In this document: positions 43,607 to 49,926 of the stretch, piece by piece
Numbering within the stretch: position 1 is the first letter of the stretch
Layout: every line of letters begins with the position of its first letter
Assembly: GCF_002104475.1 (NCBI RefSeq)
Contig: NZ_NBOF01000002.1
Span: forward strand, 930,001 to 994,000
Direction: 5' to 3'
Source: Cognaticolwellia mytili
GTDB lineage: Bacteria > Pseudomonadota > Gammaproteobacteria > Enterobacterales > Alteromonadaceae
DNA: 64,000 nucleotides
Translations under genes and position numbers: made by a program
Notes under the pieces: generated by a model
Database searches by the model: none
What the model saw: only the letters and a program-made list of their open reading frames with translations
What the model was told of the DNA's origin: nothing

Positions 43607-44764
43607 TTACAGAACACTAAACTTACTAAATACTTTATACAGTTCAGTGCCTTGATTCACACTTGCTGAGGCAAAATGTAAAATAGGGATCACGGGATGA
43701 TCCAAATTTATATAATGTAATGGATCGCCATCACCATAATTATCCATTCGCAATATCCGTGCTAAGGGCTCTCCTGCAGGTAAAGGCTCGCCAAAACTCG
43801 CTAAGTAATCGACCATGCCGCCCATTGGCGAATATAACGCTTTATAATCTTCTAACATGCAGCTGTAACGAACCATAGCTTTCGGATGATAGTCATTAGA
43901 GTTAATCACATTCTGGTACTGTAAATAACTTAAAATACCAAGCGCATCTTGATGAGCTACATCTAAATCAATTTGCTCTTGCGAACCCAGTTCAACAGTA
44001 AAGCTTTCTTTAACGATACCACATTCGCCTTCAACATTATTTTTTCGAATAGGAAAGTCTCGCCCAAGCGCTTTAAGTGTTAACTGTAATTGCCACCAAG
44101 GACAAAAAGTAGCTTCATCTAACGCGCCATCAAAACTATTAGGGATCAATAAGGTATGCGGAATATCAAAATATTTGGCACTTTCCTTAGCATATTCAGG
44201 GCAATACAAATGTTTACTTGAGATAGGGCCAGTGTGTAAATCTAGCACAATATCTGCCTGATGAGCTAAGCGTTGCAATTGATAAGCAATTCTTTGCCCT
44301 GTCGTTAAACCGTAAATATTATGATTAAGTTTTTGCTCAATTTGCTCAAGCATTAACGCTTTAAACGCAGCCTCAATTTTTTCACTACTACAATTTACAT
44401 ATTCTTGTGCAAACGGTTCAATAATACTGGCGTCAAAATGGAACATACGATTCCAATTAACCCCGGTTATAGGGTCAAACCTACCTAAGGTATACTCGCC
44501 ATTTTTATGATTACAGCCAACCGGATTCGCATATGGTACTAAGGTAATATCGCCTTTTAGTTCAATGTGCTTTAATTGCTCTAATAGCTGAAAAATAACC
44601 GCATTGCCCTGTACTTCTGCACCATGCATATTCGCTTGAATATAAACGCTAGGGCCTTGCTCTGAGCCTTGTTGAGAGCCTTTAATGCGATATACCGGCA
44701 CCGTCAGTGCTGCGCCACTGGCCATCTCACCAACATGCATCACTTCTTTACTAATTACATTCAT
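43607..44764 (-). CDS. AstE/AspA-family zinc deacylase (succinylglutamate desuccinylase-like)
   Basis: The 385-residue protein belongs to the M14-related group that removes acyl groups from N-acyl amino acids. Zinc ligands are H47 and E50 (NMHGAE) and H177 (DLHTG), with catalytic E258 (TVELG). I use the ATG at 44764 because AAAAGG lies upstream at good spacing; an ATG five codons earlier exists only in this copy of the repeated junction. It is the last gene of the lysine-riboswitch operon. It may desuccinylate a late intermediate, a job normally done by DapE; that role is inferred. Confidence 0.82.
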   Translation of the reverse strand: MNVISKEVMHVGEMASGAALTVPVYRIKGSQQGSEQGPSVYIQANMHGAEVQGNAVIFQLLEQLKHIELKGDITLVPYANPVGCNHKNGEYTLGRFDPITGVNWNRMFHFDASIIEPFAQEYVNCSSEKIEAAFKALMLEQIEQKLNHNIYGLTTGQRIAYQLQRLAHQADIVLDLHTGPISSKHLYCPEYAKESAKYFDIPHTLLIPNSFDGALDEATFCPWWQLQLTLKALGRDFPIRKNNVEGECGIVKESFTVELGSQEQIDLDVAHQDALGILSYLQYQNVINSNDYHPKAMVRYSCMLEDYKALYSPMGGMVDYLASFGEPLPAGEPLARILRMDNYGDGDPLHYINLDHPVIPILHFASASVNQGTELYKVFSKFSVL

Positions 44765-45084
44765 ACATAACCTTTTCATCGACTACCGCTGCCATTAGCG
44801 TAAATACCAAGAGGCGAACTCTGCTGCACGTATCAGCTCCATTTCACCAACGCACATCACTTCTTTACTCATTACATTCATACATAACCTTTTTATCGAC
44901 TACCACAGTCATTAACGTAAATACCAAGAAGCAGACTCTGCTGCACGTATCAGCTCCATTTAACCAACACACATCACTTCTTTACTCATTACATTCATAC
45001 ATAACCTTTTTATCGACTACCACAGCCATTAACGCAAATACCAAGCAGCAGGCTCTGCAGCACGTACTAACTCAACCTCTCCAT
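44722..45084. repeat. Three-copy 117-bp tandem repeat at a gene junction
   Basis: Three direct copies with a 117-bp period start at CCAT in 44722, 44839 and 44956. Copies 1 and 2 are about 90% identical by eye, and copies 2 and 3 are closer. Each unit contains, on the minus strand, the end of the decarboxylase gene, the intergenic sequence and the first codons of the deacylase gene. Breakpoints coincide with short CCATYT matches present in both genes. Compared with the real decarboxylase end, the extra copies lack 8 bp lying between two GAG triplets. Confidence 0.9.
44795..44881 (-). CDS. Possible 28-residue chimeric mini-ORF made by the repeat
   Basis: Copy 2 carries a duplicate of the deacylase start (AAAAAGG, 6 nt, then ATG) whose frame runs into the duplicated decarboxylase end in copy 1. 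The product starts MNVMSKEVM like the deacylase (MNVISKEVM) and ends AAEFASWYLR like the decarboxylase (AAEPAAWYLR). The corresponding ORF from copy 3 (start 44998) stops after 12 codons at 44960. Translation is plausible, but a function is not shown. Confidence 0.3.
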   Translation of the reverse strand: MNVMSKEVMCVGEMELIRAAEFASWYLR

Positions 45085-46300
45085 TTTTCAGCACATATTC
45101 AGCCGCTATTTGATGACAGAGAAAAAATGGCATACTTTCAGTGAAGCCATAAGCACCTGATAAACCAAAAACTAACTGGTCATCGACAGCAATATCTTGT
45201 GGAAAAGCTAATCGACCAAGCTTATCCAAGCTAGTACATAGCGGGCCATGAACATCGAAGTTGACTAATGACTCGGTAGACTCTCGCAACATTACCGCAG
45301 GAAATGCTTGCTCAGTAATTGCCGGTCGTAATAAATGGTTGATACCACCAGCTAATACGAGTTGTTGCTGTTGAAAGTTTTGCTTTTTATCAACAACTGA
45401 CGTGACGTAATAGCCTGATTCAGCCACAGCATAACGACCGAGTTCAAGCCATAGTTCCTTAACGCCAGCTCGTGCTTTTATTTTCGCCAAGTCATCAACA
45501 ATTTGTTGCCAACTTAACGTCTGACCTTTTTGTAAATAGTCAACACCTAAGCCGCCACCTAAGTCGAGTACTTCGAGCTTTATGCCAACTTGTTCAGCTA
45601 GCTGAGTTAGTGGCTCAACCATTTGCGACCATAAATGGAACATTTTTTCATTGCTGAGCATATTGCCCCATTGAAATATATGTAGACCATTAATATTTAA
45701 TGCAGGGAAGTCACTGACGTTAATTGTTTGCCACTCATCACACGATAGACCAAAAGGCGTCACTTCAGTGCCACCAAGCGGGTTTTTTTCACCATCGGGC
45801 CACTGTAGTTGCACTCGAAGTAGTACCTGAGGTTTGCAATCCAGCTCTATCGCCGATTCATTAAGCCACTGCAGCTGCAACAAACTTTCAACAACAAAGG
45901 TGTTAACACCTTGCTGTAAAAAAGCTTTCATTTGGCGCTTAGACTTAGCAGGCCCAGTATTAAGAATACGCTTAGCAGCAACATTTTGCGCTAACACTTG
46001 GCTTAACTCACCTTGACTGGCAACGTCAAAGTTAAAGCCTTGTTCAGCTAAGGTAGTAATAACGCGTGACAAAGGGTTAGCTTTAACGGCAAACCAAAGT
46101 TTAATCACATCTTGCTGCATTAACTCCGACAAGTGTTGCTCAAGCGCATCTAAATCATAGAGAAAAAAACCAACTTCATCTTCATCAATCTCGTCGGCAT
46201 TTACCTGCAACTGATGGCGATTTTTCAATACTTTAAGCACTGTAGGATTAAGCCAATTTGGTCTAAATCTAGCACTTAACTTTTCTTGTCTTGCTTTCAT
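45029..46300 (-). CDS. Fold-III PLP-dependent amino acid decarboxylase, LysA/BtrK-like
   Basis: The 423-residue protein is an alanine-racemase-fold decarboxylase. The PLP lysine is K73 (WFAVKANPLS), the glycine loop is LDLGGGLGVDY (about 245-255), and the C-terminal active cysteine is C355 in HGPLCTSLDKLG. The end reads SGAYGFTES followed by FFLCHQIAAE. It lacks the Y-N-x-R-P-R-P-A-E type segment of diaminopimelate decarboxylases. The CTxLD and FLxH patterns recall BtrK/PvsE-type enzymes acting on acylated or unusual substrates. TabA of tabtoxin synthesis is another LysA relative to compare. It lies 8 bp after the DapD-like gene. Confidence 0.82.
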   Translation of the reverse strand: MKARQEKLSARFRPNWLNPTVLKVLKNRHQLQVNADEIDEDEVGFFLYDLDALEQHLSELMQQDVIKLWFAVKANPLSRVITTLAEQGFNFDVASQGELSQVLAQNVAAKRILNTGPAKSKRQMKAFLQQGVNTFVVESLLQLQWLNESAIELDCKPQVLLRVQLQWPDGEKNPLGGTEVTPFGLSCDEWQTINVSDFPALNINGLHIFQWGNMLSNEKMFHLWSQMVEPLTQLAEQVGIKLEVLDLGGGLGVDYLQKGQTLSWQQIVDDLAKIKARAGVKELWLELGRYAVAESGYYVTSVVDKKQNFQQQQLVLAGGINHLLRPAITEQAFPAVMLRESTESLVNFDVHGPLCTSLDKLGRLAFPQDIAVDDQLVFGLSGAYGFTESMPFFLCHQIAAEYVLKNGEVELVRAAEPAAWYLR

Positions 46301-46308
46301 TTTTTGCC

Positions 46309-47058
46309 CTAACGTAAAACAGCTTCAAGTTCTAAGGCCGCATTACTTTTTTCATCACGGTATTTAACAATCAATGCACACGCCATATTCAAGCCTTGTT
46401 TTTCCGCCCAACCGCCAGAAATAGGACGAGTTCCAGGTACAACAACTGCATTCTCTGGAATATCGGCGCCTTTCTCTAACATAATATTATTAACACAATC
46501 ATAAACAGGTACTGAGGCTGAAAGCGAAACTCCTGGTGCCAATACCGCACCTTTTTTCACTACAATACCTTCAACAATGATCACGCCAGCACTAAGAAAA
46601 GCGTTATCTTCAATAATCACCGGACTTGCTCCAATAGGCTCAAGTACGCCACCAATTTGTACCGCCGCAGAGACATGAACATTTTTACCTACCTGTGCAC
46701 ATGAGCCAATTAAGGCATGGCTATCAATCATAGTACCGCTATCAACAAATGCACCAACATTGATATAGGCAGGCGGCATAATAATCACACCGGGAGCAAC
46801 ATAAGCACCGCGACGAACTGATGAACCACCTGGTACCATACGGACATTATCACTGACCGAAAATTCACGTGCTGGTAAATTATGCTTATCAACAAATCCC
46901 TGATATATGCCACCAAATTCAGTATTATCACCGGCTTTAAATGCCGATAATATTGCTTGTTTTACGTCGACATTAGCACTCCAATTCCCACAACTACTTT
47001 GCTCTGCTGCACGTACACTTCCTGATTCTAACGCGGTTAAAGTTTCTTGCCAGTTCAT
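46309..47058 (-). CDS. DapD-like tetrahydrodipicolinate N-acyltransferase
   Basis: The 249-residue protein has the left-handed beta-helix hexapeptide repeats of DapD (about 75-200). AYINVGAFVDSGTMIDS and IGSCAQVGKNVHVSAAVQIG align well with E. coli DapD, including the D141 equivalent (D112). The E. coli GARSEVVEG segment reads SAGVIIVEG here, so the residue aligned with catalytic E189 is I160. It is also 25 residues shorter than E. coli DapD. The acyl donor or acceptor may therefore differ. It overlaps the DapA-like gene by 4 bp (ATGA). TabB is another possible relative. Confidence 0.83.
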   Translation of the reverse strand: MNWQETLTALESGSVRAAEQSSCGNWSANVDVKQAILSAFKAGDNTEFGGIYQGFVDKHNLPAREFSVSDNVRMVPGGSSVRRGAYVAPGVIIMPPAYINVGAFVDSGTMIDSHALIGSCAQVGKNVHVSAAVQIGGVLEPIGASPVIIEDNAFLSAGVIIVEGIVVKKGAVLAPGVSLSASVPVYDCVNNIMLEKGADIPENAVVVPGTRPISGGWAEKQGLNMACALIVKYRDEKSNAALELEAVLR

Positions 47059-48068
47059 TGATTCACTTCTCTTAAATTACTTGTTGATAAAGGGGCTGAT
47101 TGGGTATTATTGAGCGCAGGTTCAAAAGCAAATGATGCTTTGTCATTACTTTTAAGTGCTTGCTCTACAAACCATTGCTGAATTTCCTGATGAATAGTGT
47201 GCAAATTGTGATCGTTAGCTAACTCTTCTTGGCATAATGGCAAACGCAATGTCGCTGTACTAATAACGGCTAATTCGGTCATTAATACTTTTACCGGAAT
47301 AGGACTCGTGACTTGAAATAGCGCAGTAATGGCATTGTGCCAAAGTGGAAATAGGCCATCACATTGCTGAGATAATGCTAACGCCACATAACGCTGGGTT
47401 TCCTGCGGCCAAACATTGGCACAAACAGACACTAAGCCCCGCACACCGGCATTGCCTAAATAGGGCATCATGGCATCTTCACCGCTGAACAATTCGACAT
47501 CGGGGCAATGCTGACGATAGGCTAATAGCTTGTTAAGATCACCACTCGCTTCTTTAAGCGCCCAGCAATTCTCATGATGTTGCAGTGCTTGTAATGCCGA
47601 AATGGCAATTTCGACACCACTTCGTGATGGCACGTTGTATAGCATACAAGGGAAGTCTGCAGCGTCGAGCAAGGCTTGGTACCAAGCAGTTTGCCCAATC
47701 GGCCCTGGTTTGGCATAAATTGGGCTACCCAGTAGATATGCGCTAACAGGAAGTTGATTACATTGCCCTATCCAAGCTATTTGCGCAGCAAGGTTATGGC
47801 CTCCAACAGCAACCATCAAAGGCACATCAAGCGACAATGCCACAACGAATTCCACAATAGCGAGTTGTTCTTCACTAGTTAATGCCAGACCTTCACCTGT
47901 GCTGCCTAGCAATAAAATACCATTGGCTGCAGCATTTTGTTGCTCTGCAATAGCTTGTAAGCTGACATAATCAATCGCGCCATCACTAAGTAATGGCGTG
48001 ATCAAAGCCGTCCATACAATGGAAGATTCCGATTTTTGGGGTGTTTTACAATAAGTTATTTGATTCAT
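47055..48068 (-). CDS. DapA-like dihydrodipicolinate synthase/aldolase
   Basis: The (beta/alpha)8 aldolase has the Schiff-base lysine K172 (LKEASGDL), Y144 and R149 (YNVPSRSG), and the GSTGEG loop at 55-60. This fits condensation of pyruvate with aspartate semialdehyde. The start is the ATG at 48068 with GAGAGA upstream; a TTG at 48113 would lie inside the riboswitch terminator. A 40-residue C-terminal tail (rich in N, S, Q) is longer than usual. It is the first gene after the lysine riboswitch, so lysine should shut it off. The other genes in the operon differ from standard dap genes, so it may be a second copy. Confidence 0.88.
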   Translation of the reverse strand: MNQITYCKTPQKSESSIVWTALITPLLSDGAIDYVSLQAIAEQQNAAANGILLLGSTGEGLALTSEEQLAIVEFVVALSLDVPLMVAVGGHNLAAQIAWIGQCNQLPVSAYLLGSPIYAKPGPIGQTAWYQALLDAADFPCMLYNVPSRSGVEIAISALQALQHHENCWALKEASGDLNKLLAYRQHCPDVELFSGEDAMMPYLGNAGVRGLVSVCANVWPQETQRYVALALSQQCDGLFPLWHNAITALFQVTSPIPVKVLMTELAVISTATLRLPLCQEELANDHNLHTIHQEIQQWFVEQALKSNDKASFAFEPALNNTQSAPLSTSNLREVNQ

Positions 48069-48110
48069 TTCTCTCGAACTCGTTTCGTTCGGAGAACTTA
48101 TAGGCGCTTG

Positions 48111-48154
48111 CAAAAGCCAAATTCAAGAAATGAATTTTGGCCTTAACAAAGGCC
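48111..48154 (-). terminator. Riboswitch expression platform: terminator and competing antiterminator
   Basis: On the minus strand TGAATTTTGGC (48131-48141) pairs with GCCAAATTCA (48116-48125), followed by TTTTG: an intrinsic terminator. The competing hairpin GGCCTT-TGTT-AAGGCC (48139-48154) uses the P1 3' strand and the terminator's 5' arm. The two folds exclude each other, so lysine binding should favour termination. Confidence 0.78.
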
Positions 48155-48347
48155 AGAAGCTCTCCACCTAAAAGGTGACAGTTGCAAGGATTCAACCTAG
48201 CACTAAGCATAAAATATGACTTAGCGACAACAACCGATATTTGTATCAACAAAAATACAATTACCTCGGCGTTTTCCCCCCTCACTATTGCTCACTAGAG
48301 TTTGAACTCTTCACAATAGCTACCTGGTAAACGCTCCTCTTCTGGCC
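48151..48347 (-). promoter_or_regulatory. Lysine riboswitch (L-box) aptamer
   Basis: Read on the minus strand, the leader carries the conserved lysine-aptamer blocks in order: GGCCAGAAGAGGAGCG (48332-48347), then GAGGGGGGAAAACGCCGAGG (48264-48283), then GGTTGAATCC and TGTCACC, and a closing GGTGGAGAGCTTCTGGCC. P1 is a perfect 9-bp stem, 48339-48347 with 48151-48159. The blocks match the E. coli lysC leader as I remember it. It controls the four-gene operon downstream. Confidence 0.9.
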
Positions 48348-48405
48348 CTTCATCATTAGGCGAGTTACAAAATGAACTAACCCAACTGGAATAAGGGACT
48401 AAATT

Positions 48406-48435
48406 ATTAAAACATTTAAATCTAAGTCTCGTCAA
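48406..48435 (-). promoter_or_regulatory. Candidate promoter of the riboswitch operon
   Basis: On the minus strand TTGACG (48430-48435) and TTTAAT (48406-48411) are separated by 18 nt, about 60 bp before the aptamer. It lies just after the stop of the DsbA-fold gene, so the operon can have its own start site. Confidence 0.5.
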
Positions 48436-48467: not shown

Positions 48468-49754
48468 CTAATTTGTTGATATACTTGATCTTATTTCTTT
48501 TTCTAAAATAGATATTCGATCTTGCCCCCAATAGCTAAAGTTTTTCATTTTAAAACACGGCACTCCCCAAAACGCTAAACTTGTCAGTTCTGCTTGGTTA
48601 TTATCAGCCCACTGTTGCCAATTGTTTTTAGCTTTATAGGCATGCGCAGCTTGTTTATCTAATGCTAACTCTTCGATAATTATATCGATATTCTCGGTGT
48701 CTGATAAATCAATATTCTCTACATAGACCGCGCGAAAACACGCCAACATGTACTCTTTACCCTTACCTTGTTGCTGTGCCCAAGCAAACATACTATATGC
48801 GTTGATGACGCCATCACCTAGGGGATCTACAAAACCATTAAATTCAATATTAAGCTTTTTCGCTTCCCTTAAAGCATCCAAATAGATGTATTTTTGCTTA
48901 GCGATGGGAATTGAAGCACCACGCATCAATAAAGGTAAAACAGGTTTAATCACTAGTTCAAGTTGATAGCGCTCGGCCAATGCAATAGCTTGCACAAAAC
49001 CCAAATATGAATAAGGACTACGTAAAGACAAGAATATTTCTAGTTGCTGTAATTCTACGTTAATTGTCGGCTGTTTTTTAAAATCAGTAAACTTTGTGCT
49101 AACAAGTTCCTTACTGACATTTACATCGGCCAATAATTCATTACTAACCGATGTTATCAAGCTGTGTTGCTCTAAAGTCTTTTCAAAATGAAAAAGTCTA
49201 TCTACGCCAACAAACCAATCTCCAGCAAAATAAATAGCAGCAGCACAATAATGCCCTTTGTATTCAAGTCGAGCCTGGTTTTTCACTTGATGGGTAATGG
49301 TCGGTGTCGACGCAACATAATGTTCACTATAAGTACCGCCCCAAGTTTGTAAAAAAACTTGCTCGGCATTATTGATATTATTAGGCAGCAATTGCCAAGC
49401 TTGCTGGCCTGTAGAAAATAACCGTGGCGAAGGGACTTTATCTATTTTCACTAGGTGATATTGCTCAGCAATTAAATTAGCATCCTGAATTGCCCATTTT
49501 CGATGCAGCTTTGGAGCTATTGTCACTCCAGGTAAAGCGCCCCAAATAAAGAATATTTTTAACTCTACTTCATATTTTTCCTGTAAACGAGCTAGCATTT
49601 GTACCAACATAAAACTATGAGGGTCGTTTAACGCTAAATATACTTCTGCCTGCGCACTTTTCCCAAAAAAACGCCCTAATAGAAAATAACGGAAGGTCAA
49701 AAGCTTTTGCCTATTTTGGCTATGTAGCCATTTTATTTTCAGGCGAAAAATCAT
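48468..49754 (-). CDS. Tandem DsbA-fold protein (2-hydroxychromene-2-carboxylate isomerase family)
   Basis: The protein has two thioredoxin-like DsbA domains, about 30-205 and 240-425. The second carries the HCCA isomerase hallmarks FLSLRSPYSYLGF near its start and FWGVPCFKMKNFSYWGQDR near its end. The first is more diverged (YLALNDPHSFMLVQM). It may be a glutathione-linked isomerase or redox protein; the substrate is unknown. The start is uncertain: AAAGGAG sits directly before a TTG (49772) and 21 nt before the ATG at 49754 used here, while an ATT at 49766 has the best spacing. Confidence 0.75.
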   Translation of the reverse strand: MIFRLKIKWLHSQNRQKLLTFRYFLLGRFFGKSAQAEVYLALNDPHSFMLVQMLARLQEKYEVELKIFFIWGALPGVTIAPKLHRKWAIQDANLIAEQYHLVKIDKVPSPRLFSTGQQAWQLLPNNINNAEQVFLQTWGGTYSEHYVASTPTITHQVKNQARLEYKGHYCAAAIYFAGDWFVGVDRLFHFEKTLEQHSLITSVSNELLADVNVSKELVSTKFTDFKKQPTINVELQQLEIFLSLRSPYSYLGFVQAIALAERYQLELVIKPVLPLLMRGASIPIAKQKYIYLDALREAKKLNIEFNGFVDPLGDGVINAYSMFAWAQQQGKGKEYMLACFRAVYVENIDLSDTENIDIIIEELALDKQAAHAYKAKNNWQQWADNNQAELTSLAFWGVPCFKMKNFSYWGQDRISILEKEIRSSISTN

Positions 49755-49926
49755 TTTATTAAAAATAGCCAACTCCTTTAGGACTATTGATGGCGAGATG
49801 TTTAAAATCGCGTAGAATAGCTTGCATTATTACATACTAAAAATAACATCTGCGCATATTTGTAGCAAAATACGTACAAAAAATCGCAAGTATTATAATG
49901 AATTAAGCGCAAACACAGGTAATTCC

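Follow-up and report, generated by a model that had tools for sequence, protein, structure and literature searches.

The genome of Cognaticolwellia mytili carries, beside its canonical lysine genes, a second set of four genes that stands behind a lysine riboswitch, and the function of this operon is very probably the making of lysine. The operon lies in a stretch of 64,000 nucleotides (contig NZ_NBOF01000002.1, positions 930,001 to 994,000; hereafter the window) and encodes a DapA-like protein (A), a DapD-like acyltransferase (D*), a LysA-like decarboxylase dependent on pyridoxal phosphate (PLP) (L) and an AstE-like deacylase (E). We give about an even chance to the reading that these enzymes would form a second, lysine-repressible lysine pathway off the diaminopimelate (DAP) route, in which decarboxylation comes before deacylation and in which DapE, DapF, LysA and free meso-DAP would be bypassed. 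In the textbook pathway meso-DAP serves as a building unit of the cell wall and is also converted directly to lysine, which means that control by lysine must not starve the wall. If the proposed reading is true, a side branch from an acylated intermediate separates lysine supply from peptidoglycan, two protein families of a group of marine bacteria, one LysA-like and one AstE-like, acquire functions, and there exists a lysine route that needs neither DapE nor DapF, both of which are considered antibiotic targets.

All elements of the operon are on the minus strand. The aptamer (48349..48149) matches RF00168 over the full length of the model (positions 1-182/182; cmscan 92.5 bits against a gathering score of 30, E 4.3e-23), and it is followed by A (48113..47055; TIGR00674 242.3 bits, cut-off 206.15), D* (47058..46309, 249 aa), L (46300..45029, 423 aa) and E (44779..43607, 390 aa; PF24827 105.8 bits, cut-off 25, i.e. 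a member of the AstE/AspA domain family). A and D* overlap by ATGA, the ATG of D* reaching into the TGA of A, and D* and L are 8 bases apart. An earlier sequence-only reading of this DNA had announced precisely such a riboswitch with DapA-, DapD-, LysA- and AstE-like genes, and the models agree with it; its remark that the set is without dapB, an aminotransferase, dapE and dapF is likewise right for the window, with the qualification that one relative, discussed below, has a dapB-like gene. The lack of an aminotransferase is in itself ordinary, because in E. coli the N-succinyl-DAP aminotransferase activity is supplied by argD and serC, according to PMC5764234. A hairpin followed by TTTT (48112..48141, minus strand) is a probable terminator that, by folding, competes with a hairpin built from bases of aptamer helix P1; the leader folds at -97.3 kcal/mol (z -4.65) with P1 included and at -25.7 kcal/mol (z -3.20) without the P1 5' strand. 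On account of this TTTT hairpin behind the aptamer and of the alternative hairpin that uses P1 bases, binding of lysine would be expected to halt transcription of the operon. The TTG listed as the start of A sits at the T run, which makes the ATG at 48068..48066 (337 aa) the likelier start, and E may well start at the ATG at 44764 instead.

The arrangement is not due to chance, since among the relatives in named genomes, of which the best 80 of 279 were retained, D*, L and E occur together in 80/80 loci (in L064 and L090 the contig stops within E), and 78 of them have a riboswitch ahead of A or, if A is missing, ahead of D* (none in L073 and L089). These loci come from Colwellia, Cognaticolwellia, Thalassotalea, Litorilituus, Thalassomonas, Pseudoalteromonas and further kin. 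The riboswitch search across the loci employed 13 seed aptamers, 7 of them taken from the same 80 loci, and an Rfam scan of 7 of the loci placed all seven above the RF00168 threshold. A is absent in 21 of the 80 loci, and E comes after L wherever the contig extends far enough. Within the order, orthologues of L are present in 16 of 247 genomes (with E values up to 4.5e-95 and the next match at 2.3e-45), and those of D* in the same 16, with none in the 231 others at 1e-62. The closest named locus (L041), from an uncultured Colwellia, has an L that is 97% identical to the one in the window, and plasmid records gave no match at 60% identity or above for either D* (47 records) or L (188 records).

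The genome search that the sequence-only reading had called for recovered canonical dapA, dapD, dapE and lysA elsewhere in the genome: lysA scores 540.6 bits, dapD 371.9 and 441.2 bits with two models, dapE 561.7 bits, the dapF that adjoins lysA 319.1 bits, and another dapA 219.7 bits (over 206.15). The same holds widely, with LysA over the cut-off in 39/40, DapE in 27/28 and DapF in 23/23 of the genomes searched, which rules out that the operon replaces the canonical genes. The genome without LysA (G096) has a dapF that is truncated at a contig start and, because lysA neighbours dapF in the window's genome, the absence is likely an assembly gap. Neither was a degraded canonical LysA seen: the Glu, both arginines and the Cys, Asp and Tyr are kept in 12/12 sequences (the column of the PLP-lysine being readable in 8 of these, as four rows start late). 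As a separate observation, five genomes (G194, G256, G257, G258 and G029; loci L175 to L179) have canonical LysA proteins of a second type that share 45-49% identity with the LysA of the window's genome; in G194, G256, G257 and G029 the lysA gene is on a different contig from dapF, the two genes being adjacent in the window's genome.

The order of steps that we propose derives mainly from L. With the LysA model TIGR01048 L scores 199.3 bits, below the cut-off of 297.9 that the LysA of the same genome (~27% identical to L) far exceeds, and the L proteins form a clade separate from canonical LysA with 100/100 support in a midpoint-rooted tree of hand-picked LysA and other decarboxylase rows, which has long branches and leaves out SbnH and BtrK. 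In the LysA of T. maritima, as described in PMC8277567, the distal carboxylate of the substrate is bound by Arg249 and Arg285 and the distal amine by Glu315; the E315T mutant loses most of its activity on DAP and accepts 2-aminopimelate, i.e. a substrate without the distal amine. In L the place of Glu315 is taken by Thr356 in 95/95 sequences, whereas this Glu, positioned after the active-site Cys, is kept in 12/12 canonical LysA sequences; R289 and R325 (the counterparts of R249 and R285) and K73 (the counterpart of K46, the PLP-lysine) are present in 95/95. This mapping of residues is supported by equal spacings, K46-D65 and E246-R249 in the T. maritima enzyme corresponding to K73-D92 and E286-R289 in L. 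Because a Thr stands in for the amine-holding Glu while both carboxylate-holding arginines stay, the pocket of L looks suited to a substrate that has a distal carboxylate but no free distal amine, such as an N-acyl-DAP.

Precedent for such a substrate exists among the enzymes that share the LysA fold and clade. A profile of 15 L proteins, compared with solved sequences, scored 186 bits with SbnH, 161 with BtrK, 150 with the Aquifex LysA, and lower with FigC. SbnH and FigC/FslC use diamino acids that carry an acyl group on the other amine; the substrate of SbnH is N-citryl-diaminopropionate and that of FigC is N-citrylornithine, as given in PMC7857480. SbnH, the best solved match, also has the Cys-Thr of the active-site loop in common with L; these enzymes differ from L in that they belong to siderophore pathways and are ~30% identical or less, and in that L retains the distal-carboxylate arginines. 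In the tree of L, two decarboxylases of a different family (L027 and L028, from G021 and G114) cluster with L (95/91), and the best score of L028 is with an exosortase-linked decarboxylase model, below its cut-off.

D* and A show divergence of their own. D* exceeds the cut-off of the DapD model NF008808 (291.9 bits against 204) but stays below that of TIGR00965 (187.9 against 375.4). In DapD the Glu of an Arg-Ser-Glu triplet is catalytic, and there are acetyl-type enzymes without that Glu. Where the DapD paralogue of the same genome has this triplet, D* has Gly-(Val/Cys/Ala)-(Val/Ile) in 95/95 sequences, while Asp112 is kept. Because the Glu is replaced, the acyl group that D* adds may be other than succinyl. 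For A we use DapA numbering, in which Y107, Y133, R138, K161 and Thr44 belong to the active site and E84, Y106, H53 and H56 to the site of lysine feedback. The first four are kept in 54/54 sequences and the place of Thr44 is Ser in 52/52; E84 is replaced by Gln, and Y106 by Ile, Leu, Val or Met, in 54/54, and the places of H53 and H56 are variable. The pattern does no more than suggest that A has lost its lysine feedback, and E84 is missing from the genome's other DapA too. In one locus (L065, 8655-8879) the DapA-like gene behind the riboswitch is reduced to a 76-residue match, which suggests a decaying A.

From these residues and gene contents we infer the following series of reactions. A, perhaps less than fully subject to lysine feedback, would form the usual heterocycle for reduction by the household DapB. 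D* would put an acyl group on the L amino group of the resulting tetrahydrodipicolinate, and the acylated compound would be turned into N-acyl-LL-DAP by a shared aminotransferase. L, which is without the distal-amine glutamate but has both distal-carboxylate arginines, would then decarboxylate the free amino-acid end to N2-acyl-L-lysine, from which E would strip the acyl group to give L-lysine. Through the riboswitch lysine could thus switch off its own supply without starving the cell wall. The decarboxylation-first order, which the sequence-only reading had also put forward, is favoured by the residue pattern of L and by the occurrence of D* and L in the same 16 of 247 genomes; a lysine operon beside the canonical set and the separate clade of L are in line with it as well.

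Several points weigh against this order of steps. The presence of canonical LysA, DapE and DapF would make a shortcut redundant. In a fold comparison LysA, SbnH and BtrK tie, and in the predicted model of L (mean pLDDT 82.1) residues 321-328 and 355-358, i.e. the loops of R325 and T356, have a pLDDT below 50. The E315T mutant of the T. maritima enzyme still acts on the D centre only, according to PMC8277567, whereas N-acyl-LL-DAP presents an L centre; SbnH, FigC and BtrK do act on L-amino acids, and no residue that sets the choice of an L centre was found. The remaining points concern E. In E itself H52, E55 and H182, which we take to be a His-Glu-His set of metal ligands, are present in 88/88 sequences, and it has solved relatives in 3fmc (E 3.6e-126) and 3lwu (E 1.4e-123); the nearest NCBIfam model, DoeB, gives only 32 bits against a cut-off of 402.7. 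E also occurs apart from its partners: 10 of the 11 loci examined in the families f6 and f15 have a shorter riboswitch-lysC-E operon without D* or L, 17 of the 18 f6 genomes of the sample (probably Shewanella and kin, judging from gene content) have an E, and in one genome (G072) a solitary E, 74% identical, is nested within the clade of the operon E proteins. Of the trees that the sequence-only reading had asked for, those built cover L with LysA and other decarboxylases, where L is set apart from canonical LysA, and E among its relatives, where the solitary E of G072 has the place just given. Moreover, in a comparison of 87 L-linked with 11 unlinked E proteins none of the 106 shared columns separates the two groups. 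Since E occurs without D* and L and no column tells linked from unlinked E, E probably has a substrate that is independent of L, such as N-acyl-LL-DAP, and the claim that E deacylates last, restricted to the product of L, is weakened to that extent. Finally, in one relative with D*-L-E and DapF (G029, a genome that is 92% complete) no DapE was found, and the sister genome G003 has dapE; the lack of DapE would fit E acting as a DapE. Two further E homologues, 44-47% identical (L159 and L167, from G031 and G121), stand next to genes that by eye resemble molybdenum-cofactor genes, with no riboswitch, lysC, D* or L.

Either E handles both substrates, or E is an analogue of DapE and L acts last. 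In the latter case the operon would be a lysine-repressible copy of the usual sequence of reactions: E would deacylate N-acyl-LL-DAP, its product may be epimerised by the household DapF, and L would be a divergent DAP decarboxylase. This reading draws on the spread of E, be it in riboswitch-lysC-E operons or solitary in G072, on the absence of a residue set peculiar to E without L, on the genome with D*-L-E and DapF in which DapE was not found, and on the fact that A and D* exceed some of the DapA and DapD cut-offs. There is precedent, too, in SO_3749, another hydrolase from outside the M20 family, which deacetylates acetylornithine in Shewanella (PMC3219624 and PMC5764234, as they describe it); a Shewanella relative of E itself scores 20 bits with the acetylornithine deacetylase model, against a cut-off of 400. 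Yet DapE is over the cut-off in all 10 of the f6 and f15 genomes searched, so that E would be redundant there. Furthermore, the amine-binding Glu is Thr in 95/95 L sequences, and the matching mutant loses DAP activity by the account of PMC8277567; and L never occurs without D* in the 247 genomes, although a decarboxylase of free DAP would need no D*. The strict linkage of D* and L and the Thr in L favour an E that serves both substrates, and we regard a mere duplicate of the ordinary order as rather unlikely.

That the operon makes lysine is indicated by its make-up in relatives. The operon-bearing genomes of family f16, 8/8, all have the order riboswitch-lysC-A-D*-L-E (one contig being cut before E), and the lysC of one of these (L165) scores 648.8 bits with the model of lysine-sensitive aspartokinase 3 (cut-off 455); in G029 a dapB-like gene (106.7 bits, below the cut-off of 122) stands ahead of D*-L-E, where a riboswitch was looked for and none was found; and 10 of the 11 loci examined in f6 and f15 have lysC together with E behind a riboswitch. 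The alternative that the product is a lysine-related compound (N2-acyl-lysine or an analogue) and that lysine is the signal only, as the sequence-only reading had entertained for a lysine analogue, can appeal to the intact canonical lysine set, to the divergence of both D* and L, and to the place of the L relatives SbnH and BtrK in secondary metabolism (PMC7857480, as described there), but with lysC first in all eight f16 genomes, a dapB-like gene inside the G029 operon and no synthetase or exporter in the three operons whose genes were all inventoried (those of the window, L099 and L165), we hold it to be improbable.

Compared with the succinylase branch of DAP synthesis (DapA, DapB, DapD, DapC/ArgD, DapE, DapF, LysA), the proposed pathway has homologous enzymes in A, D* and L, the same starting compound and, under the best explanation, the same product; it differs in that D* and L have diverged at substrate-binding places, E and DapE belong to different families, and the decarboxylation would come ahead of the deacylation. 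In LysW-dependent lysine synthesis (Thermus, archaea) the alpha-amine is also blocked while lysine is being built and is released by a final deacylation, as proposed here, although its carbon route, carrier protein and enzymes are unlike those of the proposed pathway. For E, the AstE/AspA deacylases offer kinship within the same domain family, and SO_3749 (PMC3219624, as it describes the enzyme) the precedent of an unrelated hydrolase in an amino-acid pathway. The operon itself is on record: PMC5584792 reports, for Pseudoalteromonas haloplanktis, a lysine-riboswitch operon dapA-dapD-lysA-hypothetical1-hypothetical2, describes it as confined to Pseudoalteromonas, and notes a riboswitch ahead of dapD in Colwellia psychrerythraea. 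The riboswitch and gene order are the same as ours (locus L118 is A-D*-L-E behind a riboswitch), D* and L being named dapD and lysA in that report and E presumably being one of the hypothetical proteins; in contrast to the confinement stated there, we find the operon also in Colwellia, Thalassotalea and others. A decarboxylate-first route was not found as a proposal in the open-access literature searched; what is new here is the putative order of steps with its predicted chemistry, and not the operon, which is already in print for Pseudoalteromonas.

Some features around the operon may be added. A tandem repeat (44722..45066; 2.9 copies of a 117-base unit, 91% matches, Tandem Repeats Finder) has a unit that runs from the last part of L into the first part of E, so that the L/E junction is repeated in the window; L and E are just as far apart in L041 (11269 to 11522), and most other loci have them close together. 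The gene next to the riboswitch on its upstream side, also on the minus strand, encodes a 434-residue protein (48468..49772) with a DSBA-like thioredoxin domain at residues 244-427, and the NCBIfam search of the window proteins gave no match for it. The operon of G029 (L161, 1..6877) adjoins genes that by eye resemble mgtE, pmbA and yjgA, matching the surroundings in the window, and a lysC-E pair in G243 (L155, 7461..12106) is near an arcA-like gene, arcA being present in the window too; these neighbours are hints of an old shared genomic place.

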